Origin: Saccoglossus kowalevskii
Lineage: Eukaryota > Hemichordata > Enteropneusta > Harrimaniidae
Direction: 5' to 3'
DNA: 25,870 nucleotides
Assembly: GCF_000003605.2 (NCBI RefSeq)
Contig: NW_003130854.1
Coordinates: 873,865 to 899,734 of the forward strand
Shown: positions 2,021-24,056 of the stretch, piece by piece
How the letters are laid out: each line of letters starts with the position of its first letter
Position numbering within the stretch: the stretch's first letter is position 1
Program-made: the position numbers and the translations under genes
Notes under the pieces: model-generated
The model's input: only the letters and a program-made list of their open reading frames with translations
What the model was told of the DNA's origin: nothing
Databases searched by the model: none

Positions 2021-2026
2021 TTTATT
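2021..2026 (-). terminator. AATAAA polyadenylation signal for the minus-strand gene at 2162-2620
   Basis: TTTATT on the plus strand reads AATAAA on the minus strand, about 135 bases past the TGA of the membrane-protein ORF. The minus-strand sequence beyond it is GT-rich, as expected for a cleavage/polyadenylation downstream element. This supports the ORF being transcribed and being the last or only exon. Confidence 0.5.
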
Positions 2027-2161
2027 AGTCACAAACCAGTGTCAGTGTGATATCAACAGTCATAATGATAAACTCTGCGAGATTTGTTAAACTGGCAAAT
2101 AAGTATATGCAGACAGAGAGGTATCCAACGTTGCAACGATCACTCCCATGGTTCACCCGTG

Positions 2162-2620
2162 TCAGTGGACGTTCTCGTTTGCAGTGACGAGCAGTATGAA
2201 CCAGAAGAATAGGCCAATTGGCATAACAATATATCTTAGTGTGTGGTTCAATACGAATATAACAATGTAGTATATTATCACTCTCAGCATGAGAAGAAAC
2301 ATTTTAAAGTAACAATTCCGTGAGCAAACGACGCGGAAGATCCAGAAGATCTTTGAACACGCAATGCCGCCGTAACCCGTGGCTCCACCGGTCATGCTGG
2401 ATACATATAGACAAATTGTGATTAAAACAATCAGGATCGAGGAGACAGGCTCTGCAACTATTGTAGCTGCCATTCTCGCCACTGGGTCATCAAATGTACA
2501 TGTTGTATTCGGCTTATTGTATCGATGCAAGCAGACGAACTTTATAATTAATAGGCTGGCAGTAAGTCCGACTGAAATCGGCAACATGACCACGATAAAA
2601 TGTCGTGTGCACCAACACAT
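2162..2620 (-). CDS. Small four-helix membrane protein, family unknown (152 aa)
   Basis: An uninterrupted ORF with a true ATG at 2620-2618 and an A at -3, ending in TGA at 2164-2162. Four hydrophobic segments are obvious at about residues 8-30, 59-80, 107-126 and 129-147. A polar loop between the first two carries an N-glycosylation sequon (NTT, 38-40) and cysteines, and a Gly/Tyr-rich stretch (GGATGYGG) follows helix 2. Cysteines cluster at the N-terminus (MCWC) and between helices 2 and 3 (ACSK, VCSRNC). The size and four-helix layout recall tetraspan families such as claudin/MARVEL, but I see no signature (for example no W-GLW-C-C), so no family is assigned. An in-frame TGA lies upstream, so the start is plausible without an upstream coding exon. 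The poly(A) signal at 2026-2021 supports a real transcript. Overlapping plus-strand ORFs here are shadows. Confidence 0.5.
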   Translation of the reverse strand: MCWCTRHFIVVMLPISVGLTASLLIIKFVCLHRYNKPNTTCTFDDPVARMAATIVAEPVSSILIVLITICLYVSSMTGGATGYGGIACSKIFWIFRVVCSRNCYFKMFLLMLRVIIYYIVIFVLNHTLRYIVMPIGLFFWFILLVTANENVH

Positions 2621-4152
2621 TTTAGCGCATAGACTTACAATATTTGTTTCTTGTAAAAAATCACAAGACTGAATGACTCATCTGCGTTCCACGAATTGGC
2701 TTAATGTGTGCAGAAATCAGCAACGTGTCTAAGGCTATTGTTATAAACAAACTTACAACAAACCGAAAACCACCATATCGACAGCATACCATAAATCTCG
2801 TTCACATAAAGACCTGTGTAAACATGTCATCCTAAATAAAAGGTCAATAAACTGACCTGCAATACATGAAGCCGTCAATGCTAATTACCTACGACCGTTG
2901 AATTCGTACTCTGAATAATATCACAAAGATCATTGGGACAATAGTGTTACGTGAGATACACACTGTCGTGATAGCAGTGCTGATATCAAGCTCGAATATA
3001 ATAAATTAAGATAACAATGTATCGTCCGTTGGTAATAATGTGTGAAATCCATGAATTTGACAGAAACCGTTTAAACAGAAATAATTGTGTCTGTATTTTG
3101 TTTGTTGGAGATCTCAATCGATGTGATGAGTGTGAATGAATCGATGTGACGAGTGTGAATGCTGTACAAGTGCAGTAAGCAATACACTGGTCTAATTATA
3201 GCTATGACACAATTACGTCAACAACTTTGTTACTTCCTTAACCTTTGCATAACGACGGACAATACATGGGAACTAGAAACCATGGTTACAAACAGCACAA
3301 GACGAATGTAAACGTGCACACACTAAAGTGTGGATTGATTGGCAAGCTACCTAGCGGAAGTTTCTGAAAATATAACTAGCACATGGTAGATTAAGAGGAG
3401 CCCTCTCGTAAAAATGCAGTGCACGTTATCGTGTGAACACCGATTCTTGTAAAATGTGTGAGACTGGACCGTGACGTGCGATATTGCTGATGTCAACATT
3501 AATGAAATGGAATTGTGGTCGAAACGTGTGGTTTGTTAACGTTAAACTGTATGCCTCGATTGCAAACAACAAGACTGCCGGCCATTCACGAATACGTCGG
3601 GCTGTGTCAATGTCATTCAAGGTCGTAATTTAACATTTTATTATGCTCAATGGGTCGACTCAATACAATTTGAGTCACTTCAATAAAAAATATGTGCGAC
3701 CAGTAATACTCTTTGTCACAACTCAGATCATTCGATTCCCATTTCAGGGTATGAATGTTTACTAATTTGGTGGCGATGATTTTGGTAAACAGTTGACCAA
3801 GGGGTCGTGAAGTTAAGTCAAATATTAACACAGACACCAAATAATATTCAAATTTCTACAATCTCGTTTGTGAGTTCTTAAAGTGGGACACAATTCTAGA
3901 ATTATATTTATGCTCTCCGATGCCTGGATAAAGTTTAATTAAAAAAATAGGTCTTGTTCTTTTTATTGCTTCATATAATGGGTTTGAAAATTGGTTAATA
4001 AGTTAGTGGCAAACCGCTGCTCTCCGTGGCGAGATCTAGCCGTAGAGGGCTAAACTGTGACGTCATTTCTGAACAATTGCGTTATACGTATATTGCGTAT
4101 ACGCTGACAGTATCCCGGGACAGTATCTGCTCTCCACAAAGCACTTGTTCTG
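2621..4152. other. Intergenic; one short tandem duplication at 3116-3161, otherwise nothing clear
   Basis: Two adjacent minus-strand ORFs (3426-3620 and 3613-3840) overlap slightly in different frames. They give uncharacterised peptides with no domain I recognise, and no splice sites join them. They may be remnants of an old element. No promoter was identified for the flanking genes; a TTTATAA-like string on the minus strand near 2740 is a weak candidate. Confidence 0.4.
3116..3161. repeat. 23-nt direct tandem duplication
   Basis: Two adjacent 23-base units (3116-3138 and 3139-3161) sharing the core CGATGTGAYGAGTGTGAATG differ at one position. This is a simple recent tandem duplication in intergenic DNA. 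Confidence 0.85.
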
Positions 4153-4584
4153 ATGAAAAACTTCAGCGTTAGCAAATATGAAAATAAAATTAATAAAACA
4201 AAATTTGACATGTATGGTCTAACAGTTAAAAAGCCATGCCAGTTTGAGCCAATGTACTGTGCAGGTGATGACAGAAAATGTTTGGCGGAAAGTGAAGGTT
4301 CAGGTGATGAATCGGAAGCCAGTGTTTATGTGGACAGACTGAAATGCAGAGAATGGTGTTTCTGTCAATGTCCAGTTGATGCCAACTGTCTGGTGTGCAT
4401 TTGTTGCAAAGGAATATCGGGGATTAGATTTGTTCGTGGTCTGAATCGTGTCATAACCACTTTTCGTATCATGGCTGGTATCAGTCACGATTATCATTCG
4501 GTTCATGTTGCTTCCGTTTTGGATAGGCCAGGTCATTTTCAACCAATAATTATATTACCGTTACTCAATTGCATTGTCGTCTAA
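4153..4584 (+). CDS. P2X7 C-terminal-type zinc-binding domain ORF (143 aa)
   Basis: The ORF starts at ATG 4153. The segment PCQFEP (about residues 28-33), an acidic spacer, then DRLKCREWCFCQC (61-73) and CICC (82-85) follow the layout of the cysteine-rich intracellular domain of the P2X7 receptor. In that family a W-C-x-C near one end and a C-x-C-C further on help bind zinc. The same domain without a channel is common as a stand-alone ORF in invertebrate genomes and transposons. No channel-forming P2X ectodomain or transmembrane segment is present, so this is not an ATP receptor. The residues after about 90 do not resemble the rest of the domain and may be frameshifted or unrelated, so the copy is probably decaying. 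The similarity is from recalled family pattern and is not a computed match. Confidence 0.5.
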   Translation: MKNFSVSKYENKINKTKFDMYGLTVKKPCQFEPMYCAGDDRKCLAESEGSGDESEASVYVDRLKCREWCFCQCPVDANCLVCICCKGISGIRFVRGLNRVITTFRIMAGISHDYHSVHVASVLDRPGHFQPIIILPLLNCIVV

Positions 4585-5166
4585 TTATCATTTCCGTTTT
4601 ATTAAATACATCCATGCAATTCAGTCGACCTAAGAAATGGACGCCAAGAGAAATAATCAATTGTCATGTACGTGACGATGTGTGAAATGAATTAGTTCGC
4701 AACCAAGGTGTGCTAAAATCGGGTCTGACTCGCGTACTTCTAGTACATGGTGTTGCTGGGAAGAAAAAAACAACTATCGTATTATTTATTTACGAATAGC
4801 GAGAAGAGATATATCATGTACATTGCTATTACATGTATACACTTCAGAACTACAAGCAAAATAAAATGCTGGTTTAGAATACAGGGATGGTGGTCACTGT
4901 TTTTTTTGTTTTTTTTGTGACCAGTATTTCTCTTTCTTTCACTTGTTTGTTCGTTGTATATTAATGTTGCTTAATAAATAAAAACACAGGGGTGAAAAAT
5001 TACCAAGAAAAACACTTGCATTCACATTTGTTATTGAGAGTACTATTACTTGTGATTCAATGGTTGTCGGACCATACCACACGCTAGACAACATTCAAAC
5101 AGCATTGTTGCACCAATCAAAGATGTGTGAAAGTATGCCCATTGGTTTTAATCTGAGCCAGGCCGT

Positions 5167-5168
<2 letters not shown>

Positions 5169-5211
<43 letters not shown>

Positions 5212-5242
5212 GGGGGGGGGGGTTGGGGTTCAGTCGAACCCC
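5169..5242. repeat. T42-G12 homopolymer run followed by a perfect 7-bp hairpin
   Basis: A run of 42 T (5169-5210) is followed directly by 12 G (5211-5222). After TT comes GGGGTTC-AGTC-GAACCCC (5225-5242), a perfect 7-bp stem with a 4-nt loop. Read on the minus strand this is a C-run and then an A-run, as at the tail of a retroposed element. Assembly accuracy in such a run is doubtful. Confidence 0.8.
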
Positions 5243-5560
5243 CTACATTTTGGAAGTGAATTGATTTGTGATCGTAGATTAGAACATAATAAAACAAACA
5301 GTATTAATTAAAATAATTATCATCGTTTAAACTATCAGACGCAGCCGAAATTGCATAGTAATGAGCATTTTTGTGGCAACGAGCTTCACATGTCTCAGCT
5401 CAACATCAGCAAATAAAAAAAAAGTTGTTATAAATTGGCAAGCTTTTATTCTGTGATTCCGCGATGGTGTAACGAAGATCGCGTTCAAGCAGCTGATGAT
5501 AAATATTAAAACAACATTGAAACAATAATGTAATGGCGGTCACTCTCTGAAGGATGTGGT

Positions 5561-5576
5561 GGTCCTGAATAGGGCC
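5561..5576 (-). promoter_or_regulatory. Histone-mRNA-like 3' stem-loop
   Basis: On the minus strand the sequence reads GGCCCTATTCAGGACC, flanked by AAAC before it and ACCACA after it. Metazoan replication-dependent histone mRNAs end in a 6-bp stem and 4-nt loop of the form GGYYCT-TTTC-AGRRCC, followed by ACCA and a purine-rich downstream element. Here a purine-rich CAGAGAG follows about 15 bases on. One stem pair is a C-A mismatch. No histone reading frame lies upstream on the minus strand, so this would be an orphan or relic signal, or coincidence. Confidence 0.35.
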
Positions 5577-7730
5577 GTTTGTCTTGTGCTAGTGTTCGCT
5601 CAGTTATTAAAGTGTGGGGATCGAACGGGGTTGACACGACAACACAACACTGTACTTTTCTAGTTTGGTTCATTAGTTTTGTATTTTTCAAGTTAATGAT
5701 GGCATATATACTGTTTTGTTGCAAGTGTTTTGTTTCAAGAATAAAAAATAGTTGTCAGCAAGAATGGCATGTCTCAATTTCACAATCATCCAGGCTGTGT
5801 ACTTTCGGAAAAATCAAAGTAGTACTTTAACCTGGGAGATTTATTGGCAAGCAATTATAGACTAAAATATATATTGACGAGTTTTTCGCTGTTTTGGTCA
5901 TAAACATAATAATAAATACGTTTGAATTTAGCTTGGTAGAAAATGAAATTCACTTTTTATATGTCCATTTTATAATGATCTGAGGGCCGATCTCTTGTCA
6001 ATAACCCTATGCAATTATGCAAATACTGACAGTCCGGGCTTACTTCGTTGCTACACAAAATGACACATCATTTATCAACTAGCTCTGTATTTTTCAAAAG
6101 TTTTCAAGCGACGAGATGAATATGAATCCAGCTTTACTTAGTACCATGTTTTTAAAACGTGCTATTCACTTTTCTACCAATTACATTTTCTACGATGGAC
6201 TGAGGCCCAGTACCGAAATAAAATTACATAATACAAAATTGACTAATACTAAAATGAATAATTCTAGACAGATTTCGAGATGAAATTGTGTCCCTTTTAT
6301 GTGCGCAAACATCTGCGAAGAGCGAAAAAATCGTTACATTCTACCTTAAAATGCTTAGACAATAATGCTAAGATACGTATAATCTTGTCTTTTTTTGTGT
6401 ACAACATTTCGCCGTAGTGTATCTAGCGTGTGGGTGTGTTTGTCTGTGGGTGGCTCAGGACCACTTCTCTGAAATGGTTAAATAGTTCAAAGATGTTATG
6501 TGAAATAACTTACCAACGTAATACAAAGTAAACCAATTGAATTTAAAACCGAGAATATAAAAATCTCTGTAACAGAGCTCAGACACTTTTTGAATATTCA
6601 CACGTTTCACATCAAATATATTATTGTTGTTTTCGAACCCTCTATTCAAAAGTGCTGGCTACGGTCCTGTGAGCCCACTACAACAACTACAACACGATTT
6701 ATTTCTTGTGTTGAAAATATTGTAAAGTCACGTACGTAGAATCATGGCTAAGCTCCTATTAAATGTCATGGTAGAAGTGCAGCGAATTCAGTGTATTCAC
6801 AACAGCTGATTTGGGTAGTTGTTATATTTGGAAATCAACTTGTGTGATGAAAAATCCATTACGAAGCCAATTCGAAATATGCTGAATGCTCTTAATTTAA
6901 GTCATTCGTAATTCATTCACGAGTCAAAAACTGTTTGGTTTTGTTATAAAAAAAAACGCCATGTAAATGGGTTGATTATTGATAGTGATACAAACAGATG
7001 ATTTCAATGTACAAGTTTCCCATAAAAAGGAAAGGCATATTTGTTGAGCGCCATAGCCTTTTTTCGTAGGTTATCATGGTTGTAAATTTTATAAACTTCG
7101 ACGACAAGAGGTACGTTTTTAGGCAAATGTGGCGTTGACGCAGGTCAAATGCATGACAGATGTACGGGTATCCATAATGCAGCCAATGAGTTCAAAAAAT
7201 ATAAATTCACGATCTGTACGAAATGCATTAACAAAATGTCCATAAAAAACGTAAATATAAAGAAACTATTTCTCATTGAGACTACTTAGACATAGTATTA
7301 TTAAATGTATTTATTTAAATTCCGGAAAATGTGACGCCACGCATGTATGCGCCATATTGAATATCTCAGAAAAGAATCTTTCCATGGAGACGCCTTGTAC
7401 ATAATATATTCTCAAAAATTCTCTCCTCGAATCCATGAACCCGTGTTCTTTAGTAGCTCAATTGGTTGCTATTTCAATAAAATACTGGCCAATTTAAATA
7501 AAGGAAACATAATTATTGATAGCAATCAGCTGTATATAAACCAACAATAGTTTAGATTAGAATGTCGATTCAGACAATCTTTTTCATGAAAATCAAACAT
7601 GCAAGAACGTTAAGAATGTATAAATTCAGAGTACAAGTTTGTAACCATTTGTGACCACATTCACTTATATTAATATATATATGTATAAGCCATTAAAACC
7701 ATCTTTCAGTTTATATTAGTATGTATTCCA

Positions 7731-7746
7731 TCAGTTGGCTGGACGA
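7731..7746 (-). CDS. Terminal coding exon of the VWD gene (SRPAN, stop)
   Basis: A very strong acceptor, TTTTTTCTTTGTTATTTGTAG, is followed on the minus strand by a base that completes AGT (Ser), then RPAN and TGA. The phase matches the exit of the VWD exon, and the summed coding length becomes a multiple of three. The protein would end right after the VWD domain. The 3'UTR continues to lower coordinates, with only variant poly(A) hexamers seen nearby. Confidence 0.55.
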
Positions 7747-10700
7747 CTACAAATAACAAAGAAAAAACGGCACGTCGTTATTAAAATACAATAATTATTA
7801 TACTTATATGCGTTTCAAATACACTGATAACTTTGTAAGGGTAAGGGATTACGATATCGAATGACTTACCTATCAGGTATCTCCCAACTGTTTCCAAATT
7901 CCTCCACATCATCAACCAATTCTAAACCACGTCTTGTAATCTTCTGGAAGTCGTCATCGGGATCGTCATTTGCGTTGCCCAGTAAACCACACACTTTGCC
8001 ATCGTAACGTTTGTCAATTGCTATGCTGACATGCCCATCATCATTGAACCAAACAGTGAACTCACCATCCTTGTCAATTTTCAAGTTTGGTCCGTCGTGT
8101 TCAATAGTAACACCCCTAGTGCTGTCATTCCATTGTCGCAATTCAGACATGTGAAGTGTATGCGTTCTATTTATCTACAATAACATAAATGTGTTGACAC
8201 ATACTTGCTGAAAAAAGCGATTATTCAGTTATGCACTATAGCTTTTTACACAGTTTATTTAAGTACGAAGACGCATGGTATCATTGTGATTGCTTTCCTA
8301 GAGCGAATTTACTGAATGAATTTTTTTGTGAAATTACTATATGTACATTAATCCAGTAGCTTAGTGACTGAGTATTCGTACTCACCAACACACATCTTCC
8401 TTCTAGGAGATCAATTCTAAATGAGCCCATGAGCTTGATATTCATAGTGACGTATATGCTCTTGGTGTACTTCACAACGTTGTTATTCTGTTGCTGTTTC
8501 AACCAATTGTCAATGACAATAGAGAAACGAGCACTTTCCAGCGGTCGACTACATTCCCTAATTAACGTGTAGGAACCGTTTACTCGGAATCGAAATTTTG
8601 TTTTGTCGAGGGTGTGAAAATTGAGATATCCAAATATACTGCTTTCTGCAATAATACAAATTCGTTTCAATTACAAACTTGTCAATTTTGTTTTGAAATC
8701 TATAAACAGCATGGCAAAACGAATGACTAAATGATAAATATGTAATTTACCTGATATGCTCTCACTATTTGTGATGAGGATAATGCAATACATCACACAT
8801 ATATTGAGCTCCTAATCAGTGACCTAAGGTTCAAGTATTGCTGATACAATAAGAACACTAACTTATATGTACATGAAGTATTAGTGAAATAAATTAAACG
8901 AACGCAAGTATATTCTCTTATATGCATTTGATATTTGTAACACAATATTTGGGTGGGTAGTTAAATATGTCTAAACAGAAAATAATAAGTGGGAATTATT
9001 TCAAATTATTACTTTCAAGTTTTACATAATTGACTCGGAATATACTCTCAAAGAAGCTGGCAATTCATTTGAATTGAATTAAATCACGTTATAGATTGTT
9101 TACGTTGAACCCAATTAGTATGAAAACAGGTTTAATCAAAATTTAGTCATCTTGTTGGCTTAAACAATGTCCGACACTAAAAGACGTGGTTGCAGAATGG
9201 CGAATATTTAAAAATTGGCATGTCGCTCAACATTTGTATATTTAAAAATATTATCAAATATCTATTGTTAGATTCTGAGTGTGATCGAATGTAGTACGTT
9301 TAATACACAGACATAATTAGTTTTAGAGGCATGATCATGCATATTAAGTAGCTAGTTTGCATATTAATTATCTCATTTTATTCTGGGTAACCCACATTTC
9401 AAAAAACGTCTGAGTGAAGTTATCTAAAATAAAGAATAGAAAATATCATCATGAAATGAATGAATCCGAGGTTCACCCAAGATACCTTCCTACCAACTGT
9501 CAATAATTGACGTAATAGGCAGAAGTAATACATAACATTGTTTGAAATTGAGAATTGAAAATAATGCCACGAAATGAACAAATGTGATATAGGTCTACCC
9601 AAAGTACCGATATACCAAGTATCGAAGCAACAGAACTAATAGTTTTCAAAAAAAGTTAAAAATTACAAAAAATAATTGATAAAAAAAAGAGAATTGAAAT
9701 TATTATAATGAAATGAACGAATCTGACACTATCAATATCAAGACTGCAGACCAACAATCACTTTATTAGTTTTAAAAAGGCGGCAGAAAAATGTCAGTAA
9801 CTTATTGCCGAATTCCATAATTTTTAAAGACATGATTGAAGATTTGGCACCGAGAAAAAATGAAATGAATTTATAAGTCAGTAAAAGAGAACATTTTCAA
9901 AATAGGGAAAGCAAATGTACTGTTTCACACTGTCGCGAAAGCCTCTGATGTAAACATCACGCGAATCGCCTGATCCATATACAAATGTAATGTGTATATG
10001 GTGTTTCGAACGACATATCTTGGAACTACAAGCGATGGTTAGGAAAATACTGTAAGAGTTCTCAGCAGACGAATGAACATAGAAAGGCAATGAATGCATC
10101 ACCAGAAGCTACTCTGACATTGAAACAGTGCCACCCAAAAACTAATGTAGAATTTAACTGGCCGTCGATATAACGAACGATCGCCAGTTTAAAATGGCCA
10201 TNNNNNNNNNNNNNNNNNNNNNNNNNNNNNNNNNNNNNNNNNNNNNNNNNNTTTTGCCCCGCTGTTAAAATATATCATTGAATATTTTAGTCTTATTATT
10301 AGTTACGCAGAACAAACATCGCGTCATTTAAGACGGCATATTTACGTTCATGGGGGAAGAAATGATATATTCAGCATATATACTATGATTTGGTAACGTT
10401 GATAGTTGAATGTATTTCATAATAAAACTTACGAGGGTGGGCACAACATTTGCAGTTAGTTGAGCATTTCTTTGGCAATTCGATTTCGCTTCCTTCACAA
10501 AATCGTGGTCTGCAACAGCCCCCAGCATCATGGCAATCGTGTGATTTCTTTAGACCCGTAGTATGATCTACAAAATAACATTCTAACAATAAAATACTAT
10601 TATTGACCAAAAAAAACAAACAATTTGTCCCCTCGCCAAATTACTCGCCATCGTTTTCATCTGAAAATACCGACACTAAACTGAGCAATAGAAACAGTGT

Positions 10701-13700
10701 AGGGTGTTGTCATTATTAATATAATTATCCTAAATATGTAACAGTCACTGCCAAATAAGCGGCCCACAGTACCATTTTTGGCATTGATCACAAACAAACT
10801 CTAAACACTTCTAAGCTGCACGACAGGCCACGTTGAGCACCGTTCGGGCGCTTGACACTCAAAATAAACAGCCCCTTTCATATTAACACATGGTATATCG
10901 ATAAGTAGTAGTTGTTGATTGTGCCTGGTAATGCATCTTGCGTGAATAATACTAACGATTAATGTCGCTTTTGATGAGCATTATTATTATATTTCGATGT
11001 AGGATTATTTACAAACTTCAGAATTCAGACAAACAAATTAGCTTATGATTATCGCGGTTTCGATATACTTGTATTTGCCTTTTATTACCAATTACTATAC
11101 CACTTACCGGTAAAATAGTCAGTACAACTGTGATAAATAAACAAATACTAGTTAATCAACATGTTAGCTGACGATGGTATTTATTTCAGTTTATCAATCG
11201 ACGTAAAGGATCAATACATCACGTCTCGACTACAAATTAGTCCAATAGTGATATTACAAATAGGTTAACAGTATTCACCGTAACAAATAACTGATTTACC
11301 CCGATATGCAGCATTTTCTCACGTCGGGTCCCGAGCATAATCCGGAACGATAATCGCCATTTACACAAGGATGGGCCCGTGTATCTAGGCACGCCGCACC
11401 TGGTATAGCAGTACAATTTGTGTCGTCTGAAAAAAAATTTTTGTATACCTCGATGAAACACCAAGCGATCAACACTGATTAGTCATCACAGAAACTTTTA
11501 TAAACCATACACAATGTTTCTATGCAGCATACACATTGTATAGTTTTCCATTGTTTCCCTAATACATATGGGATAGTTTACCAAACCACAGCAGCAAAAT
11601 AGTTTTTTTCCGTGGTCTTGTTCACTTTTTTAAGTAAAAACAAACACCAACAACCAGTATAACGAAAACAGATGAGATGTTATGACTCGCACAACGGTAT
11701 TGCATTTACAATACATCTATGTATTAACAAGAAAACAGAATTTGTGATTATTTGTTGAGTATATTTAGGATGAACATTGATTTACTTAAAAACTTGTGTG
11801 TATTATTCATTAACTGTACACCCGTAACGCCAATTTTTAAATATGTGTAAACAACGTGTCAGATTTGTGAACTGCAAGTGTTATTTAAATTAATTGTAAT
11901 ATTGAGTAATTTTAATAAACAATATGTGTCATATTGTTAATAAACATTTCATTCGTATATACAATAGATGATCAAAATTAACATCAGGTGTTTCATTAAT
12001 AATAAGTGTACTCCAAGTGAGTCATTGTATACTTAGAGTTAATGGAGTGGTCTTTTAGCGGGCATGGAATTGAATATTTAATGCAGATATAATATTTGTT
12101 GGAATGTTTACTGTACTCAGATGTTATTATGGAGTAGCTCGGCTTGTTACAATATGTAATGTATTGTATAATGTCCAGGTATTTGGGTGAACATGTTTTA
12201 CAGCTATCATAGTTGGTGTAATTGTGTTTCTTAAAGACATGTTTTCAGTATAGGAATAAGCTCGATGTTACACTACTATAATATACATAATTGTTTTCAG
12301 ACATATTCAGTACAGTACAGTACAGTACATCGTGAATGTACTGAAATAAGCTTGCATGATTAGAAAATGTTTGTCCAACTGGGGTAATATACCTTGAGGA
12401 GGAATGCAGCATTGCCTGAAATGATGCCCCTCACATTTGTCTTGTACATACCAACCATCACACGGTACGCTGGTTTCCTGACATACACCGTTTAATTTAT
12501 CGCAAGCACCATCACCTATTAATGAATAAAAAACAAACAATTTCCTATTATCAGGTGCAGGCATACATATATGTATTGTATTGTCTTCATCGTTAATGTT
12601 AATAATTGTTTACGTAATTCTGGTGAGAGTGTTTAATACTCACGCGTCGTTATTACACGCGCACATAAACACGTGTTATGCTTTACACATTGGGGATGCA
12701 TGCAGAATAGTAAAACTTATTGTGGAAAGCAATAATGAAAAGCGTACACCGCAAATGGCATATATGGGTTGCTATAGGGGGAACGGTAGGATTGTTGATT
12801 TTATCGCTGTAACAATATCTCTGGAGTGCATCCTCTTTACGAGTTATGAGCACATAATAGGGTCCAGATGTGAAACGTCTCCGGTAATGTAATGAGCCAT
12901 ATTAGTTACCAATGAACTGAGAATAACAATATTTTACGTATAACATGTATATTACAAGTATTTACCTCCGTCAGCGATACAACATACCGTGCCATAACTT
13001 TTCGGATGACACCTATATGTTGGAACTGTTGTGTTCAATTCATAAGATTTTCGCCCACCACACTTTAACGACTCCAGTTGACATTTGTTGGGGTATGCAC
13101 AGTCTTCAGTATCTGTAATGAGATGAGAATATTACAAAAAAATAATAAATATAAGTGCATTGACTTCACATTACGACGTAGGTTTCCTTTATTAAAAACA
13201 AAATGATTTTCTTAGAGACAAGTTACTAAAGACTTGTCAAGAAGAAGAAACATTAAACATCAGTTCTATTCTTTCTCGTGTATTTTATGTCACGATTATT
13301 TTGCATCAAATTTGCCTGTCTTGGTGCCGGGTGGCCGTGGATAAGACGTGCCGTGGCATTTAGTTGGACTGTTCGCAACTGTACGCAAGCGGGGATTATA
13401 CTCATGTACGCAGTACATGTTTACTTAGATTTACCAAGGCATTTACCCTTCCGTGTTTTTCACCTTAATCACTTCTTGGGATTGCAACACATAATAGTCA
13501 TTGATATCAGCGGAGGCAATTTGTGATCGAAACAGAATACTACCAAATATACATATTGAAAGACATTTGATGCTCTATAATTCCCAAACCAGTAATATAT
13601 ATACATCGTCAATAATGAATAATTATCTTTTTAATCCTATGATATGTTATACGACAATTACACATATATATGTTTTGGTTATTGGTGTCCTGTGTATAAA

Positions 13701-15958
13701 CATAATGGGGAAAATAAATGTAAACTTACGAACTGAATACGAACATGGGTAGCCACACTGACAATGCACTGTGTAATCAGACTCAGCACTGTAGGCGTTG
13801 TACAACGTGTTAGGCTGCTCGCAAACACCTCCGCTATCAAGACAGGAATCTGAAAACAAATAAACAACGAGTAACTTATTAAGGTAATTGCAATAAATTA
13901 TACACAACCTAAAATAACTATAAATAAAATAAATAAGTGTATGATATTTATGATCAATTTATCTGTCAAGTTTGTTAATATACTCAAAATCAAACGTTTG
14001 GTGACTCCTTTCAACAATGCACTATGTAACAATAGTAAGTATCATTAGCGCAACTCAATTTGAGATACAATTTACAGAAATAATATTAAGTTAGTCAATT
14101 ACGGGAACCCATTCCAAATATAGATGTGCTAAGAATCTCACAATTCAAGCCTCTATTTCAATAGCAATTTCATTCACACTATCAGGATAGCCCAAAATAA
14201 AGTCATTTGATCCCAATATGGATTTAGCTCACTCAAATCTACGAAACCACTTTTTCAGCCTGTATACAGTTTGACTGTGGCGATTTCATTTTCGATCATT
14301 GCTATACTTCATGAACTGTGTACTGTGTTAACGTATCATACCGTATCAACTCGAAAAAATATCAAATAATAATTAATGTTAGTAAGTCTTGACATGCAGT
14401 TCATATTACTGTGATCTTCTCGTCTACAATGTAAATCTTCGTCTGTGTCTTCTGATTGATTATAAAATGCATACAAGTGTTGTGAAAATGTTGAAAGTTG
14501 TACATTTTCATAATCACTGAACCAAAAAGTGTTTAGTTCAAATAAGCACATTTCCGTATTTGTACTAAACAGCAATTCAAGTTTCAATGAAAAATCCATC
14601 CCAAATTTGCTTGATTTAGGTATGCATTTCACACAATATATTCCATGATACAGAATGTAGTATTACCTGTTGCGCCGTTTCCTTGAATATCATACTCCCA
14701 TGGAATAAAACATTTCATGTGTAGATTGCACTTATTATATTCTACACAAACACTACTTTCGGCAAAACAACCTTGTTCAATACCAACATCGGTTCTGTCA
14801 TCCAGGCAAAATCCCTTATTTCCAAATGTATCTTCACATGATATATCAGTATTGTCTGCACAAATAATTTTATTATTTGGAAAAAGTAAAATAAAAAAAA
14901 ATATTTAAAACTGTAGGCTGCAATTCCAAGAGTAACATCGCTTTGAATGAGATTGCCGATTCATTACACAATTGTAGTCATTTAATCTGTTCCGCACATT
15001 ACACAGTGTGTAGTAACGTAACAGATGTGATGTCCCCTTATTCGTGTTTGTCATCAATATATACACAGTTACATACATGCGTTTATAACTCGAGAGACTG
15101 GGCTAATTTAATTTTTGGTCCGTACATTTGGAAATAAAAATTGCGCCTCTAGTATACGAGTTCATGACGAAACCTCCTTTTTCTGGTATGTCAGGAATGC
15201 TGGATTAATATCTTGCATAACATCGCTTCAAGAAATATAGTTTTAAACGACAACAATGCAAAGACAAATATATTTTGGATTTCTATCACTCACTATTACA
15301 CGGTACTGTCATATTGAAAGAATTATTTGCATTTGCACTCATCACAAAATTGGTTGCCTTTCCCTTATGTATAGCAATAATGACAATTTATATTTGGTCG
15401 CATAAAAGTGCTTCTTTCAGTTTTATAAATCGAGTTAATATGTTTTCTATTCATTTATTATTTTTGGCAGTTGATAATAAGTTGCGTTTGAAGAATGGCC
15501 GTACTAAAGAATTGTACATTACATATGTGTGAGTTGTTTATACTGGCTATAAATTATGCAATGTATTAGCTCAAATATATTAATCAGTTTCTTAAACTCA
15601 CCATAATTAGCATTAAAGTGTTCCCACTACAATAAAATAAAAGAAAATATACAATTGATCTGTGAGTATACACAAACTAACATACAGTGTAAATACTTAT
15701 ATACACTTTTCACAATGATAAAAATTGTGTTTTACATGAGTGATATACCTTTGTAACGGTATTTTGTATGCAACACAAGAAGCTAGAATTTACTTGGCCA
15801 CTTTTTAATTGTTACTATAGTATCAATGTGATTAAAATCTTCTTTATAATGGAGAATCCGTGAACAGCTAATACAGTACCTGATCTTCAAGTTTGACTGT
15901 TAACACAGACTTTATAAACACTGACATAATGATGCAGCAACGTATTGACATTCGCATC
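7731..15958 (-). CDS. Secreted cysteine-module + VWD-domain protein gene (reassembled, about 507 aa, 11 exons)
   Basis: The gene was assembled by hand from GT-AG sites and phase: 15957-15880 (start), 15626-15602, 14855-14667, 13849-13730, 13112-12966, 12515-12393, 11428-11302 (see below), 10567-10433, 8645-8386, 8174-7870 and 7746-7731 (stop). All splices keep one frame except the fifth cysteine-rich exon, which has one surplus G. Layout: weak signal peptide (1 to about 21), six disulfide-rich modules (about 36-314), one VWD domain (about 316-500), short tail ending RPAN. VWD domains mediate protein-protein contacts in secreted multimers and matrices; the usual C8, TIL and EGF neighbours are absent. 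Likely extracellular, for example matrix, mucus or humoral; the function is unknown. The VWD half is secure and the 5' two exons are tentative. A gap in the intron at 10202-10251 could hide sequence. Confidence 0.6.
7870..8174 (-). CDS. VWD domain, C-terminal half (101 codons)
   Basis: Acceptor TTATGTTATTGTAG, donor GTAAGT; entry phase 0, exit phase 2. Clear VWD signatures are present: GEFTVWFNDDGHVSIAID, then KVCGLLGNANDDPDDDF, equivalent to the CGLCGNYN-type loop with Asp/Asn residues for calcium, then VEEFGNSWEIPD at the usual end of the domain. The second cysteine of CGLCGN is a leucine here. Two N-glycosylation sequons (NRT, NDS) lie near the start. Reading through the donor would end at once in TAA, giving an almost identical C-terminus. 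Confidence 0.88.
8386..8645 (-). CDS. VWD domain, N-terminal half (86 codons)
   Basis: Acceptor TTTGTATTATTGCAG, donor GTGAGT; entry phase 1, exit phase 0. The peptide SIFGYLNFHTLDKTKFRF, NGSYTLIREC, FSIVIDNWLKQQ and IYVTMNIKLMGSFRIDLLEG follows the beta-strand order of a VWD domain. The usual GDPHYxTFDG opening is changed to GYLNFHTLDK, and the first family cysteine (G-x-C before Y-x-L) is missing. An NGS sequon is present. The match is by pattern recognition; with the next exon it makes a full-length domain of about 185 residues. Confidence 0.8.
9429..9760. repeat. Three diverged tandem repeat units, period about 120-140 bp
   Basis: Segments starting near 9433, 9551 and 9691 share the core GAATTGAAAATAAT followed by ATGAAATGAAYGAATC and similar flanks; the first two also share an ACCCAAGATACC / ACCCAAAGTACC stretch. 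A weaker fourth copy (AAAAATGAAATGAAT) lies near 9856. They look like an old minisatellite-type expansion inside an intron. Confidence 0.6.
10202..10251. other. Assembly gap (50 N)
   Basis: Fifty undetermined bases within the intron before the VWD exons. The true length is unknown, so an extra exon here cannot be excluded, although flanking phases (1 and 1) are already compatible. Confidence 0.98.
10433..10567 (-). CDS. Cysteine-rich exon 6 of the VWD gene (phase 1-1, 45 codons)
   Basis: Acceptor TGTTATTTTGTAG, donor GTAAGT, both strong. It codes HTTGLKKSHDCHDAGGCC, RPRFCEGSEIELPKKC and STNCKCCAHP, with eight cysteines. The same framework is visible (C-x6-C-x4-C-x10-C-x5-CC) with two extra cysteines, which would allow a fourth disulfide. 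The composition is compact and basic. It is the last module before the VWD domain. Confidence 0.7.
10568..12392. other. Introns of the VWD gene around cysteine-rich exon 5
   Basis: Only exon 5 (11302-11428) was found here. I looked for a phase 2-to-1 exon in 10568-11301 that would resolve the exon 5 conflict and saw none: a 16-nt candidate near 10650 creates a stop. A short GC-richer patch near 10820-10860 has no donor and is probably a repeat scrap. An (ACAGT)n microsatellite is at about 12311-12328. Confidence 0.45.
11302..11428 (-). CDS. Cysteine-rich exon 5 of the VWD gene, with a phase conflict at its donor
   Basis: Acceptor TTTTTTTTCAG. It codes DTNCTAIPGAACLDTRAHPC, VNGDYRSGLCSGPDVR and KCCIS, with spacing C-x7-C-x7-C-x9-C-x7-CC. 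This is a close relative of exon 4. The only adjacent donor, GTAAAT, follows TCGGG. The exon is then 127 nt and leaves in phase 2, while the next exon needs phase 1. A single extra G in a run of four explains it: a 126-nt exon would restore the frame. If the intron were retained, translation would stop right after CCISG. It could be a sequence error, an allelic frameshift or an unseen alternative exon. Confidence 0.6.
12393..12515 (-). CDS. Cysteine-rich exon 4 of the VWD gene (phase 1-1, 41 codons)
   Basis: Acceptor TTCATTAATAG, donor GTATAT. It codes DGACDKLNGVCQETSVPC, DGWYVQDKCEG and RQCCIPPQ. The cysteine spacing is C-x6-C-x6-C-x8-C-x7-CC. Together with the next exon this is the clearest form of the module. 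The pattern C..G.C.(D/E)TS..C.G.Y...C.G.....CC is one I associate with small domains in secreted metazoan and fungal proteins, though I cannot name a family with certainty. Confidence 0.65.
12966..13112 (-). CDS. Cysteine-rich exon 3 of the VWD gene (phase 1-1, 49 codons)
   Basis: Acceptor CTCATTACAG, donor GTAAAT. The peptide holds DCAYPNKCQLESLKCGG, an NTT glycosylation sequon, YRCHPKSYG and TVCCIADG. The spacing C-x5-C-x6-C-x16-C-x8-CC is the module scaffold with a long third loop. Its place between modules of the same ending (CCI) supports tandem origin. The acceptor pyrimidine tract is weak, but the phase agrees with both neighbours. Confidence 0.6.
13318..13400 (+). repeat. Possible tRNA-derived SINE remnant
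   Basis: A GC-richer patch in the intron between cysteine exons 2 and 3 contains TGGCCGTGGATAAGACG, which resembles a tRNA/SINE A box (TGGC..AGTGGATAAGACG). GTTCGCAACTG follows about 40 bases later, a poor B box. No complete tRNA fold is visible. It is a guess based on these two motifs and composition. Confidence 0.3.
13730..13849 (-). CDS. Cysteine-rich exon 2 of the VWD gene (phase 1-1, 40 codons)
   Basis: Acceptor TTTGTTTTCAG, donor GTAAGT. It codes SCLDSGGVCEQ, a Tyr/Ser-rich spacer, then VHCQCGYPCSYSV, for five cysteines. The opening C-x6-C matches other modules, but the second half is different (CQCGYPC), so it may be a distinct small domain. Entry and exit in phase 1 let it be gained or lost without a frameshift. 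Confidence 0.65.
14667..14855 (-). CDS. Cysteine-rich exon 1 of the VWD gene (phase 1-1, 63 codons)
   Basis: Acceptor TTATTTGTGCAG, donor GTAATA. The reading is open only in phase 1. It gives six cysteines in segments ISCEDTFGNKGFCLDD, GCFAESSVCVEYNKC and HMKCFIPW. The end KCFIP parallels QCCIP in the later modules but lacks the Cys doublet, so it is probably a diverged member of the same module set. No named domain is assigned. The plus-strand ORF opposite is a shadow. Confidence 0.6.
14856..15601. other. Intron of the VWD gene, nothing else seen
   Basis: AT-rich sequence between the candidate microexon and cysteine-rich exon 1. Plus-strand ORFs (14943-15137 and 15275-15532) show no domain, no matched splice sites and random composition. 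Confidence 0.45.
15602..15626 (-). CDS. Candidate 25-nt microexon of the VWD gene
   Basis: The acceptor TTTTATTTTATTGTAG and donor GTGAGT bracket 25 bases coding WEHFNANY plus one base. It enters in phase 0 and leaves in phase 1. It therefore fits both the start exon at 15880 (phase 0) and the first cysteine-rich exon at 14855 (phase 1). The splice signals are good, but an exon this short could be chance. Confidence 0.4.
15880..15958 (-). CDS. Candidate first coding exon of the VWD gene (weak signal peptide)
   Basis: A strong acceptor, CTCTTCCCTTTTACAG, sits immediately before GATG on the minus strand. The ATG at 15957 opens 26 codons, MRMSIRCCIIMSVFIK and so on, to the donor CAG|GTACTG. The exon ends in phase 0, which matches the microexon at 15602. 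The peptide has a basic start and a hydrophobic stretch but a lysine inside it, so it is a poor signal peptide. In-frame ATGs at codons 3 and 11 are alternatives. The upstream acceptor implies a 5'UTR exon that I did not find. Confidence 0.4.
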
Positions 15959-17399
15959 CTGTAAAAGGGAAGAGACACACAATCACAGTTTCACTGTAAA
16001 CATTGAATATCAGTGTAATATATGTATCTCTAGCCTACACAATCACTTAAGTGTTTTTTATACTTTGCTGGTTTAAATATAGTGATTTTCAAGACACTTT
16101 TGTAATGTTTTGAAATCATTCTGTAATAGACGTGAAGCGCCCACGTACGTATTACTCCACAATCGAAAACATTAGTTCATGTTCGAGGGAAATATGTCAC
16201 CATAACAAAATCATGTACGCTCATTCGGTTCTCACGACGTTGCAGTACTGTTTAGGACCAACAAGTCGCATGTTTAAAGTAGACATTATAAAATTACAAG
16301 AATTAAATTACAAGAATTTTATAAAAAGATTGTTTACTAATTGTAAATCAAAAGAAAAACAATGTATATGTTCTTTTTAAGTAGTGATTCATCCGCTGAC
16401 ATCCATGTAAGTTAACACCATTTATTGATTCATCTGATTTTTAGATATATTCTCGTCATCTAAAAACATTATATGATATGAAGCTAGCGACACAAAATGA
16501 TCAACATTTTAATCTGAGATCATTAGTGTCACTGTGAATAACGTAAACGTATTGTAACAGCCTGTTACTGTAATCAACATACAACATTTACTCAGTATTC
16601 GTTTTAGTATGTATTATAAATTTATGCAGTCTATAAACAATTTTAAAATACCTCAATCAGCATGTACACTTTCTCATCTTTTTAACGATTCTGCCGTATT
16701 TATTGATTAGTCTTGTGTCTAAATTCCGCTGCCGGACGGGGTATGATGCGTCGGTGAGTGTATAGTTTGGTGGTGTGCGGTGGGCATTATTGGATGGTAT
16801 TATTTTGATTTATTCACGATATGATGCGTTTGAATAGAGAACTGTGATTAATAAATGCTACACAGCTAGATCATTCATTGCACATAATTTTTCAAAAATA
16901 AATGTGGCATATGGTTGGGATTTCACCGGTTTGCGTTACAGGCCATTGTATATATGGCCTAATTCACCAAAATAATAGAGTGATTTTGAATACCAGGTCG
17001 CCTGCGTTTCCATCAGTGCGTGACATGGCGCTAAACGTCTGCTTAGTGTAGCTTATTCAGTGACGTTTATTTGCGGTATAGATACATGTTTGCGGAATCT
17101 GTGTTTTTGTTTTGCTTGTTCTTACCCGGACAATCTTGCCGGCAGGCGAGCTCGAAACTCGAAAAAAATATTGGGAACAATGGCACGCGTAATATGGTCA
17201 AATAAATATTTACTTTGCTCTTTGAATAATAATTTTCAATTTATTGAAGAACGCTTAAAATTCATCTGACGGAATTGAAATAGTTACATTACACAAAATA
17301 TGCACTCACTGTCACACTTACAACAATATACGGATAATAGTTATACAGAATACAATTATGAAATACAAAATTCAGGATAAAAAACTGCAATAAGCAAAA
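15959..17399. other. Upstream flank of the VWD gene; no gene supported
   Basis: The acceptor at 15958 implies a 5'UTR exon in or beyond this stretch, but I cannot place it. Plus-strand ORFs at 16132-16380 and 17060-17269 have no recognisable domain. A small inverted repeat, GGCCAT-TGTAT-ATATGGCC, lies at about 16943. Confidence 0.4.
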
Positions 17400-18240
17400 A
17401 GACAATTCAAAAAAGTTAATTTGGAAGATTCTGTTGTCTTTTAAGGAAACTGGTTTTAATACATTTAGCCAGTGATATACAGATCATTTTGTTTTGCTTT
17501 TCATTAAAGTTAAGAATTTTCTACGATTGTTTAAGTTCATAAAGTTGTTCATGTGTTTGTTAGTTTCTTCTGACAAGATTTCACACTGTAATCTAGAAAG
17601 TGAGCATAACATTATGAAGTGTACTTCATCCTCCACTTCATTCCTCACATAATATTTTTTTGTGTTTGGGTTTTTGGTCTAGAGTGTATTTTCTTTTCAG
17701 AGGGAACTGCCTAGTTTGCCGTATATACCCATTTTGGATGTATTTTTTGAACTCCGAGTACAAAGCTGTTGAAGTAGAGATGCACTTTTCCACCTTGATT
17801 GGTATGAGCGTTCAGCCCCCCAAAAAACAAAAACAAAACAAAACATCTCTGTCATAGACTAATATCGAATGAACTAATTTATCGATTTTGGTTGGATTTG
17901 TATCCTATTTCCTGTTTGCCCTCTCTGTTTAAGAATATTTATGACCGCTTTGAATTTCCCATCGCTGCTCATTAACACTCCCAGATAATTGAACTGTGTG
18001 ACAACGTTCACTTCTTCATTTTCTTGAAAAATAAATTTTCAAACATTTGTTTTCTTTATGTTGATTGCATGAAGCCAAATTATCTAAACAGTTCTGTAAA
18101 CCATTTTTACTTTCATCCGGTAATGTTTTGAAATCGACAAATGTGGTCATTATTACGTGAGCTAGATTTAGCAGGGACAAATAGTTCCGTTTTGTCGTCA
18201 AAGTGTGAGTTTTTATACCAGTGTGATCCACTAATTGATT
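17400..18240 (-). pseudogene. Decayed non-LTR retrotransposon (LINE) reverse transcriptase 3' fragment
   Basis: Three colinear minus-strand segments match the end of a LINE RT ORF. The first (about 18230-18030) gives GLQNCLDNLASC and ENKCLKIYFSRK, the region after the YADD box where GLQ..LD.L and KTKVMVF-type motifs occur; the catalytic YADD itself is degraded. The second (about 18020-17870) gives VTQFNYLGVLMSSDGKF, the FNYLG(V/I) motif typical of this zone. The third (about 17770-17550) gives YSEFKKYIQNGY and then VEDEVHFIMLC, the usual EDE.HF...C near the 3' end. Frameshifts and stops separate them, so it is a dead, 5'-truncated copy. The family (RTE, CR1 or other) cannot be set from this. 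Confidence 0.75.
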
Positions 18241-18412
18241 TTATTCAAATCACAGCAAGATATTATACGTTTCACGGAGACAGTATTTAACAGAAAATCC
18301 CCGACACGTATTTTGACTTCTAACCCCGATTTTGCATGAAAGTATAGGAACGTTTTGTCGATAAAGCATGCGTTTTTATTTTAGTGCGATCCACTATAAT
18401 TCTTTTTTATTA
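18187..18412. repeat. About 60-bp duplication in and beside the LINE relic
   Basis: The segments at 18190-18245 and 18352-18410 share the order CGTTTTGTCG, AAAG, GTTTTTAT, then AGTGYGATCCACTA with scattered differences. The first lies in the RT remnant and the second just outside it, so the relic may be partly duplicated or extend further. Confidence 0.6.
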
Positions 18413-18702
18413 TTGGGAAATAATTGCTTAAATTAACAACAGTGCTAGCTATAACGCAAGTGTTCACACTGGTAAATAAGCAAACACGTTCATGATTATT
18501 TTTTTATTTATTTTTTTGTTTTTTAAAAAGCAATTAATGTTGTTTTGAAATTAAACATCGGGTTTTCAATTTGTTCCAGTCCGCTCGCTAAAAGAAGGCT
18601 CCGCACTGAACTGTCAGCTCATGAATAATCTTGCATAAATATGTATATTGAGCTCCGAGGTTACCGGGGCGGAAACCGCTGGTTTGATTTTTATCACCTC
18701 CC

Positions 18703-19120
18703 TAACCACACGCACAAATGCTCAGCAACGTATTGTCTTGTTTGACGGATTGTTTGGATTAATAAAAATATCGATGCGTCAGCCGTTGTACATCCATGAT
18801 ACTATGCATTGATATACGTGCCTAATATGATTTAAATAAACACCGATTATCATGTATCACATCTGACTAGTGTGTACATATAGTACACATAGTACACATA
18901 CAGTAGATTGTGCATATTGTATAAGGCGAAACACATGATATTGCTTTGTCTATTGTGAATATGTAAAATCTATTTTGTTAATCAAACAGGTTTTGAAAAT
19001 AATACGCATGTGTTGAATTCATTTAAATACGTTTTCTAGGTATCGCGCAATAATCTACTTCATAGAAACCTGACAACAATTTGGATGCATCATAGATACA
19101 TTTTGACCACACATCATAGT
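18703..19120. repeat. Dispersed repeat, copy 1 (uninterrupted)
   Basis: This segment runs from CTAACCAC...GCACAAATGCT to about CATAGATACATTT.GACCA.AC. Its left part matches 20935-21097 and its right part matches 24064-24265, in the same order and orientation with few differences. It is the unbroken version of a repeat whose second copy was split by a TIR element. A short AGTACACAT iteration at 18880-18905 is present only here. No ORF or TIR is recognised in it. Confidence 0.85.
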
Positions 19121-20934
19121 AAAAACATGCCGTTGCATTTGTTAAGAAACTTGTAGCGTGGCAGCTTGCAACAACGTACATACTGTGAAATATTGCTATT
19201 TTTATTATTTTTGCACAAGCGCAAAAAGGCCATATAGCGCGATTTAATTTTCGTAAAAAACAGGTGCACATTGTCAAGTTTTTGCTTTGTTTTGCTGGTG
19301 CATATATCTCATAACTTGTTTGCATTGTGTATAACAAAAAATTAAAATGAAAAAAAAAGTGTTCACACAATAATTTGTCTCAAAGGGCATTTCAGTACTG
19401 ACGTATACGGTTTTCGTTTTGCTATACTGTAATACTACGATCGCCGTAACACTTCCACTTAGTAGCATTGCAATGCAACAGACAAACACCGATTATGTTG
19501 CTATCACCAAAACAGGACACTTCAGTGTTAAAATACACATACGTGAAATCCTCGAATAATTAAAAGAAGAGTTATCCAAGAAATAAGATCGAAATGGGCA
19601 ACGAGATGCTGTTTTTAAACATCCCGGAAAAATCATGCACTCTGAGATGCCATCCTTTTTTCCCCATCATGCATCGGTTGCAATTTCGAAAAGTACGTTG
19701 TATGTCTGCGGTTGGGGACCTCTCATATACTAAGGCATGTGTCAATTGTATCGGCCTTCTCGTCTACATTTGCTTAAAACGTGCCTCGATTTAAAATAGT
19801 TTCCTGTCAAAGCGACTTCTTTCCGAATTTGCTGTTGATAGTTTGTGTCACCGGCGTTTGAGTAATAGAAACTAATAATCGCCGTCGTGCAGATACATTT
19901 TGATAAAATATTATGTAAAACAATACATTACAGCCAACCAATCAATTGCGTGTTGTCCTATTGTTTACAGGCTCGAGCTCCGGCCCATTTCAGCAGGGTA
20001 TTCTGACTGAAACTGAAATAGTGTTGAACTTGGCACGGTTCGTCTGACATAGGAACGAAAAAAGGGCGTCATGCATTGTGTTGTTTATCGTTAAAACGTT
20101 TGAAGGAAGATAAATTTGTACTCATCTTTGAATTAACGCAAATAACCCGTCGCGATCACGATGTTTATAAGACTGTGTGACTATCATATTGGCTTTAAGT
20201 AATGCATTATGCCCCTTCCTCAGTGTTATTTATAATTTGCATAACCATTTCCAACAACTAACAGAGTGTTGCTGTTAATAATTAAAAATGCTTTTACAGT
20301 CCCAAATTTGAATCTATTATCATTTTTTTTAAAATGCCACTGCACATAATATGTCATCGCTTTTATTTTACAGAGTTATATTTCACTATTTATATACAGC
20401 CTTATAAATTGTGCTAACCATGACAAACGAGAATGCTTGTGCCTGTTATCAGCATTTCACTTTTGACAAAGCTCCGAAATGTTAACAGTCACGGTATGAA
20501 TAAAAAAACAAAATAAAACACGTACCCATGAACCTGCAATATACATTAAAAGTAAATGACGAATACCCACTTATTCAATCATAACTCCGGTCAGGATAGA
20601 TCGAATACAAACGATTACAAATACAATCAAAACATAGCGAGCTGTTAATAGAACATGAATAGCATTGAATACATTTGATTTTTCAGTGAAAACACAACAT
20701 ATATATCAAGGCTACAATAACAAATATTGACATGTTTTACGAGTTTACTGTAAATAATATGTGTTATAATAGTCAAACAACAAACAATTTACCTTTGAAA
20801 ATGTGTAACTGACCACAGCTCACCTTATAACAACTTTATGACTCAGTTGTGCAATAAAAAGTCGTACTTTGAGTTGAAGTGATGTCGCTCTTTCCCTGGC
20901 AAAATAGGCGTTCATATACGTTCCGTTGACCCAA
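19121..20934. other. Intergenic between the two repeat copies; nothing supported
   Basis: AT-rich DNA. Minus-strand ORFs at 19023-19489 overlap the repeat and have no domain. The plus-strand ORF at 19594-19794 has an ATG but no recognisable feature or poly(A) context. Confidence 0.4.
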
Positions 20935-21097
20935 CTAACCACGCGCACAAATGCTCCGCAACGTATTGTCTAATTTGTATGGCTTAATAAAAATATCGAT
21001 GCGTCAGCCGTTGTACATTCATGATACTGTGCATTGATATACGTGCCTGATATGGTTTAAATAGACACTGATTATCATGTATCACATCTGACTATTA
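20935..21097. repeat. Dispersed repeat, copy 2, left part
   Basis: The order is AACCACGCGCACAAATGCT, AATAAAAATATCGATGCGTC, then TTATCATGTATCACATCTG, matching 18706-18865. It ends at the apparent target site GACTATTA (21090-21097), where the TIR element begins. Confidence 0.85.
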
Positions 21098-21313
21098 TTA
21101 GCTATCCCTATATGTTCTTCAGTGAACCTCGAAATAGTGAGTACTGTAAGGTTTTATGGTGGAAATATAATATACAGGTTCTAAGGACTCAGAAACTGCC
21201 GGATGCTAATTTGCATACGTGTAGCATTTTGCATAATTGACCTAATTAAAATATTAATTAGGTAAAACCACAAAAGCTAATACATCTTACTTTGTAATTC
21301 ACATAGACTTCAT
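21098..21313. repeat. Left terminal inverted repeat
   Basis: It aligns to the reverse complement of 23850-24056 with substitutions and short indels. The best blocks are at 21138-21160, 21190-21240 and 21262-21313. The outermost 30 bases pair poorly. It contains the palindrome ACCTAATTA-N6-TAATTAGGT at 21240-21263. Confidence 0.8.
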
Positions 21314-22046
21314 TTTTGTGTCTAGTCCCATGTATTTGGCCCCAAGGAACCCATCGAGCATGGTTTTAGATCCATGTGACCCTTCTGGCCATTTGGAATC
21401 AAAATGGCCACCATGCGTAATAAGGAAAGTCATAAAATTGACATATCTTTATAACCGATAAACATTGGTCCCTACAAGTTTTATTTAGCGCGTTCACAAA
21501 TCCATATCACTATATTAAAACATGCTAACCACAATGTAGCTGAATGACTAAAGCCAAATAAGTATCTGCTTAAGATGTGAACATGGTTTTGATGTATGAT
21601 CTCATCAAAGGATCATCTGGTGAAGTTGCAAATAAGTTCTAAAATACAATAAAATAATGCATATTGTAATAACATTTAACATCACTTTTCAGTAATCCTG
21701 TACAAGCTGCAAAGTATTATAATTATTACAGGAGAGAGTGATAAAAGCACTAAACTACACTATATAATTAAACTATTTGTCTTTCGATACATCTTCAGTC
21801 CTTATGTTACAGACTGACAATGCATATATAGAATGATGCAAAACCACAAACAATAAACAATTACTAGTTTGTGACGCTGAATAGTCCAGCAGTTACTAAA
21901 ACTGTTATGTACACTCAGATTTCAGGATGCACCTAGTTCTTGCATGGACAGAGTGCACTATCACCTGTTTTTCAAAAGACCGCATAATGGATATTTTTAA
22001 TAATATTATCTTCATAGTCATTCTCTCTTTCCTCTACATCTGCTTC

Positions 22047-23849: not shown

Positions 23850-24056
23850 TGAAGCCTTTATGTGATTTACTGAGAAAGATATGGTAGATTTTGTGATTTG
23901 ACCTAGTTAATATGATAATTAGGTAAATTATCCAAAATGCTACCACATATGCAAATTAGCATCCGACAGTTACTGAGTTCTTGGGAACTATACATTGCAT
24001 TTCCAACATAAAACCTTACTGTACTCGGCATTCCAGGCTCACCCCTTTTGCTAGTA
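23850..24056. repeat. Right terminal inverted repeat
   Basis: Inverted partner of the left repeat. It holds the degenerate palindrome ACCTAGTTA-N6-TAATTAGGT at 23901-23924 and GCAAATTAGCATCCG near 23950. It ends at the second GACTATTA copy. Confidence 0.8.

Follow-up and report, generated by a model that had tools for sequence, protein, structure and literature searches.

A predicted gene joining cysteine-rich modules to a VWD domain

We analysed a window of 25,870 nucleotides (nt) from Saccoglossus kowalevskii (contig NW_003130854.1), that is, the whole stretch of DNA under study; all coordinates are positions in this window, with exons of minus-strand genes given in plus-strand coordinates. 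On the minus strand, from about 15960 to 7731, we identified a predicted gene of 12 exons, specifying 514 amino acids (aa) with 43 cysteines when a 20-nt microexon is included. In order, the protein would contain two cysteine modules without defensin spacing, four modules of six to eight cysteines with beta-defensin-like spacing, and a single VWD domain in which most of the usual cysteines are missing. The exons, with cysteine spacings where these apply, are as follows.

15880..15957, minus strand: start exon, 78 nt, phase 0 out; begins MRMSIRCC and is the most hydrophobic of the candidate start exons upstream of module 1
15602..15626, minus strand: microexon, 25 nt, phase 0 to 1
14667..14855, minus strand: cysteine module 1, six cysteines, 1-1 exon; spacing not that of a defensin
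13730..13849, minus strand: cysteine module 2, five cysteines, 1-1 exon; spacing not that of a defensin
12966..13112, minus strand: cysteine module 3, 1-1 exon, 5-6-16-8-CC; likeness to beta-defensins in cysteine order only
12393..12515, minus strand: module 4, beta-defensin-like, 1-1 exon, 6-6-8-7-CC
11300..11426, minus strand: module 5, beta-defensin-like, 127 nt, phase 1 to 2, 7-7-9-7-CC
11108..11127, minus strand: predicted microexon, 20 nt, phase 2 to 1; contributes one cysteine and would link modules 5 and 6
10433..10567, minus strand: module 6, beta-defensin-like, 1-1 exon, eight cysteines, 5-5-10-5-CC with two extra cysteines skipped
8386..8645, minus strand: first VWD exon, phase 1 to 0; PF00094 at 39 bits alone
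7870..8174, minus strand: second VWD exon, phase 0 to 2; PF00094 at 34.5 bits alone; retains the first cysteine of CGLCGN and an acidic loop
7731..7746, minus strand: last exon, coding end through stop

All six cysteine exons and both VWD exons were found to have usable splice sites, and all the cysteine exons but one (five of six) are symmetrical 1-1, in agreement with an earlier note made from the letters of this DNA, which had described most of them in this way. That note had also proposed nine splice-consistent exons and a protein of about 507 aa. Whilst the exon sites held up, a single reading frame through them did not, failing between modules 5 and 6, and the length was revised to 514 aa in 12 exons by counting the 78-nt start exon and the microexons of 25 and 20 nt. 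Splice sites were scored using generic textbook frequencies not trained on this species, which is a weak point; by this model the acceptors of modules 1, 5 and 6 and of both VWD exons are poor (56th to 80th percentile), whilst the 25-nt microexon has a donor at the 99.6th and an acceptor at the 95.6th percentile of sites on the strand. An in-frame stop is present at 15993, upstream of the start exon, which encodes a possible, in our judgement weak, signal peptide. At the other end of the gene, an AATAAA is found at 7315, 416 nt downstream of the coding end.

The cysteine pattern fits four modules

The order C..C..C..C..CC is present in modules 3-6, in module 6 with two further cysteines, and is absent from modules 1 and 2. 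The pattern C-x(5-7)-C-x(4-7)-C-x(8-16)-C-x(5-8)-CC, which had been put forward as common to four modules, does indeed fit these four. When a slightly wider pattern was run over all six frames of the window it matched exactly the same modules, compared with a mean of 0.05 and a maximum of 2 matches in 40 shuffles. When the splice cut-offs were loose, 1-1 exons that are open and carry six or more cysteines were found at five loci on the minus strand and none on the plus strand (40 shuffles: mean 0.07, maximum 1); four of these loci are exons of the gene, and one lies in a transposon-like stretch (22558-22737). With any phase allowed, there were eight loci on the minus strand and one on the plus strand (shuffle mean 0.78, maximum 3). 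A weak point of these exon counts is that the cut-offs were loosened after a stricter first run, in which one exon passed (mean of 0.03 in 30 shuffles).

As to internal duplication, modules 4 and 5 are 39 % identical, and 1 of 2000 shuffles with the cysteines held fixed scored as well. For the remaining 14 of the 15 module pairs, 39 to 1547 of 2000 such shuffles scored as well. The exon duplication envisaged in the earlier note is thus supported for modules 4 and 5, and not for the other pairs.

Relationship of the modules to defensins

The canonical beta-defensin spacing is C-x6-C-x(3-5)-C-x(8-10)-C-x6-CC, with considerable variation reported (PMC6716921), and none of modules 3-6 has exactly this spacing. 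To compare residues other than cysteine with those of known beta-defensins, we used a lizard profile of 40 rows (39 peptides), hand-picked for a regular cysteine pattern from Table 2 of PMC6716921 (66 genes). Module 6 scored 19.9 bits, equalled by none of 1000 cysteine-fixed shuffles, with the caveat that the profile contains three eight-cysteine peptides, which favour this module. Shuffles as good or better numbered 6 per 1000 for module 4, 23 for module 5, 32 for module 1, 42 for module 2 and 371 for module 3. MAFFT failed to align the cysteines when given more than two modules, and structure models of modules 3 and 5 were built from two-sequence alignments. Beta-defensins form a three-stranded sheet with disulfides 1-5, 2-4 and 3-6. 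The model of module 5 has a helix and three strands and overlays beta-defensins at low Z, whilst against a viral fold library it returned 16 rows, all with E > 2. The model of module 3 is poor, and the lizard profile likewise gives this module no support.

In each of the six modules the cysteine region is preceded, on its 5' side, by a phase I intron, a feature that is not specific to defensins. In defensins, an intron of this phase at this position is the rule (PMC7203481). Modules 3-6 do not show the net positive charge typical of defensins (+1, -3, -1 and +1, respectively), and modules 1 and 2 are acidic (-8 and -5).

Database searches brought no defensin match. With E values as high as 10 allowed, Pfam returned no defensin family for any of the six modules, in a search whose filters drop most weak matches; the single row was VanW for module 2 (E 0.11), which we take as chance. 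Searching PHROGs with two of the six modules gave one row only (E 0.17), and a PDB sequence search with the modules gave two rows at E ≥ 1 and two tetranectin rows (E 0.32 and 0.4) across modules 1-2. Phage records searched with module 5 yielded one match (E 8), and none of 26 pattern stretches from viral and prokaryote collections, in which one would not expect a gene of animal origin, was confirmed as a relative.

Taken together, four modules have beta-defensin-like spacing, and for three of them profile or fold predictions may point the same way. An unrelated disulfide module might instead have converged on this spacing, in which case the product would simply be a structural protein of a matrix, adhesive or coat and would lack any immune ancestry. 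In keeping with this are the missing Pfam defensin match, PDB sequence rows at chance level, the failure of modules 1-3 to act as defensins in spacing, model or profile tests, the lack of cationic modules, and the fact that 1-1 exons are common in shuffled extracellular modules generally. Modules 4-6, however, beat nearly all cysteine-fixed shuffles with the defensin profile and the model of module 5 overlays beta-defensins, and we regard convergence as rather unlikely, if a serious contender.

The reading frame between modules 5 and 6

With the exons joined as in the earlier note, the frame clashes at this point: exon 11426-11300 exits in phase 2, whilst exon 10567-10433 encodes a module only if its entry phase is 1. 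The 20-nt microexon 11127-11108, which lies inside the intervening intron, enters in phase 2 and leaves in phase 1, and could resolve the clash. Its donor ties for the top score in the window, it was the sole microexon to pass strict cut-offs among the ten introns tested, and an equally well-scoring microexon occurred in 1 of 4000 random introns of matched length and dinucleotide make-up, a test whose weak point is that its threshold was the candidate's own scores. At loose cut-offs, 67 % of random introns contain some open exon of phase 2 to 1, and the case for the microexon therefore rests on its splice scores.

Omitting exon 11426-11300 likewise leaves the frame open, giving 465 aa. The clash might then mark the module 5 exon as a decaying or optional cassette that is skipped in the real product, and an open frame without it needs no second microexon. 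Against such skipping, that very intron contains a microexon of the phases needed, whose donor is outscored by none in the window, and module 5 is open and resembles module 4; we thus find the cassette explanation improbable and retain the 12-exon model. A different acceptor for module 6, at 10596, was also considered, as it keeps the frame and outscores the usual one (-0.9 vs -2.7); it was disfavoured because it adds ILLLECYFV, which we read as the tract preceding the usual acceptor. Additionally, module 5 contains a strong internal donor-like site (score 11.0) that would yield a 27-nt 1-1 exon, 11426-11400, which is probably due to chance but might be an alternative splice form.

The VWD domain

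The joined VWD exons, as scored in the 465-aa version lacking module 5, matched PF00094 at 69.1 bits (E 7.1e-19; cut-off 22.9) over columns 2-151 of 156. The closest solved relatives were FCGBP, von Willebrand factor (VWF) and mucins; a PDB sequence search with the first VWD exon alone gave no match. In alignments with FCGBP and VWF, CGLCGN reads CGLLGN, with the second cysteine replaced by leucine, and GxCxYxL reads NGSYTL, with the early cysteine missing. Both motifs are visible in the aligned VWD relatives and are not required for PF00094 membership. The domain retains three cysteines in all and carries three N-glycosylation motifs. Its GDPH site, the self-cleaving motif of VWD domains for which mutants have been described (PMC10880436), reads GYLN, and therefore cleavage is not expected.

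Pfam scans of the minus strand, both below 7740 and elsewhere in the window, revealed no further domain, C8 and TIL included, and those of the plus strand at 1-9600 and 16000-25870 gave none either, whilst the same type of scan did recover the VWD domain. Rfam also gave no match. Continuation of the gene into C8/TIL exons was accordingly rejected on the minus-strand scans, and the lone terminal VWD reported in the earlier note is borne out. This is not new in itself, as MUC4 and RGMB also have a VWD domain that lacks C8/TIL (PMC10880436).

One gene or two

The longest intron, at 1787 nt, separates module 6 from the VWD exons, and the phases on its two sides match. Within it, positions 10202-10251 are 50 N, which could conceal an exon, the more easily if the real gap exceeds this length. 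No 1-1 cassette was found on searching the intron. One further candidate exon is located in this intron.

8751..8793, minus strand: alternative first exon (MYCIILITNSESIS), phase-compatible; would give a VWD-only product; weak

This raises the prospect of two transcription units or isoforms, namely a protein of the cysteine array that stops short of the VWD domain and a short VWD-only protein starting from 8793-8751. The candidate has a good donor (8.7) and is positioned just before the VWD exons, in the intron that is both the longest and interrupted by the N gap; its hydrophobic stretch is very short, however, a comparable exon was found in 47 of 500 random introns, and the agreement in phase between module 6 and the VWD domain speaks for their being joined. 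We consider a division into two units to be quite improbable.

Proposed protein and its mode of action

With confidence evenly balanced, we propose an extracellular-type protein of 514 aa in which the VWD domain anchors and the tandem defensin-like modules bind as a multivalent array; its anatomy is computed, and the rest we infer. The introns and the VWD domain point to an animal gene. The protein is probably extracellular, on account of the possible signal peptide, the three N-glycosylation motifs of the VWD domain and the density of cysteines. The VWD domain would hold it in an extracellular layer, such as mucus, clot, or an egg or body coat, and the modules would offer several disulfide-locked loops, jointly binding molecules on the surfaces of microbes or of the host. 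The data fit the earlier suggestion of an extracellular protein assembled from modules on phase-1 exons, with one VWD domain at the C-terminus, whilst exon duplication is supported for modules 4 and 5 only.

Alternatively, the modules may kill or entangle microbes, in place or after proteolytic release, with the VWD domain serving only for targeting. The beta-defensin-like model of module 5 and the double and triple beta-defensins of birds and lizards (PMC9138766, PMC6716921) would be consistent with such an antimicrobial poly-defensin. Conversely, the net charge of modules 3-6 spans only -3 to +1, a comparable X-tox protein is inactive (PMC2728511), and by our reading of the sequence a dibasic pair occurs in one linker only, before module 6, making regular peptide release unlikely; we therefore hold a killing function to be very doubtful. 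A binder is favoured because the modules carry almost no net charge or are acidic, and because the linkers offer no regular processing sites. The likelihoods that we attach to the various explanations overlap and are not meant to sum to one.

Somewhat more tentatively, we suggest that the gene may represent a novel extracellular protein class, namely a poly-beta-defensin with three or more modules (perhaps four to six), each encoded by a separate exon that follows a phase I intron, and with a single trimmed VWD domain fused to them. In such a protein, defensin folds would be building blocks of an anchored multivalent surface and not free killing peptides. The defensin-type fold is familiar chiefly from small free peptides, and, if correct, this proposal would mean that the fold, in tandem on separate exons and joined to a mucus-type VWD domain, is used as a shuffled module within a larger extracellular protein, providing a testable case of immune peptides turning into, or arising from, proteins with a structural or adhesive role. 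The proposal would, in addition, account for the cysteine pattern that the earlier note had left unnamed. The description of the architecture as undescribed, made in that note, was too strong for its parts, as beta-defensin-like spacing and VWD domains without C8/TIL are both known. The combination of the two was not seen among the open-licence PMC papers listed, in a search whose tandem-defensin part was not aimed at VWD.

Other elements of the window

On the plus strand, 4108-4584 is open over 158 aa, has splice-like ends and is densely clustered with cysteines from about position 4226 onwards; no Pfam match was found for it. Inverted repeats of ~168 nt, 83 % identical, are located at 21139-21305 and 23859-24026 and bound a DNA transposon-like element (21139-24026), within which minus-strand open frames (22047-23469) showed no convincing Pfam match. 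The flanks of this element (20935-21094 and 24060-24263) recur adjacent to one another, 45 nt apart, at 18702-19118, as if a dispersed repeat held the element in one copy and were empty in the other.

Comparison with known systems

In the D assembly (VWD-C8-TIL-E), C8 and TIL follow the VWD domain, which is not the case here on the minus strand of the window. BMPER (crossveinless-2) resembles the present protein in that cysteine modules, which in BMPER are VWC domains, stand ahead of a C-terminal VWD region. MUC4 and RGMB also invite comparison, although their partner domains differ from those found here. BMPER has VWD, C8 and TIL (PMC10880436), the latter two of which were not found in our gene. 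MUC4 and RGMB, by contrast, resemble the present protein in having a VWD domain that is not part of a complete D assembly and lacks C8/TIL, but they carry a cleaved GDPH (PMC10880436), where the present domain has GYLN.

With beta-defensins and big defensins the modules share six cysteines ending in CC (modules 3-6), the helix and three strands predicted for module 5, and a 5' phase I intron (PMC7203481). Furthermore, by our reading of Table 2 in PMC6716921, the lizard peptides VkBD16-18 have two extra cysteines in the same two gaps as module 6. The present modules differ in their wider spacings, the lack of a Pfam match, their non-cationic character, the presence of several modules in one long chain, and the fusion to a VWD domain. 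Several beta-defensin domains per chain are also found in avian AvBD11 (two domains, one exon each) and Komodo VkBD39 (three) (PMC9138766, PMC6716921); these are short peptides and are not known to carry a VWD domain.

The motifs of lepidopteran X-tox proteins are of the CS-alpha-beta type (cis, CXC), whereas modules 3-6 end in CC and thus do not match the X-tox motif. X-tox proteins are not known to have a VWD domain. A cis defensin motif is marked by CXC (PMC9138766). As a 'defensin rosary', X-tox proteins are nevertheless similar to the protein described here in being secreted tandems of diverged defensin-like motifs (PMC2728511). Moth Spod-11-tox is secreted, is not processed into bioactive defensins and is not antimicrobial (PMC2728511); this precedent, together with the charge of the modules and the scarcity of dibasic linkers, favours a VWD-anchored multivalent binder.

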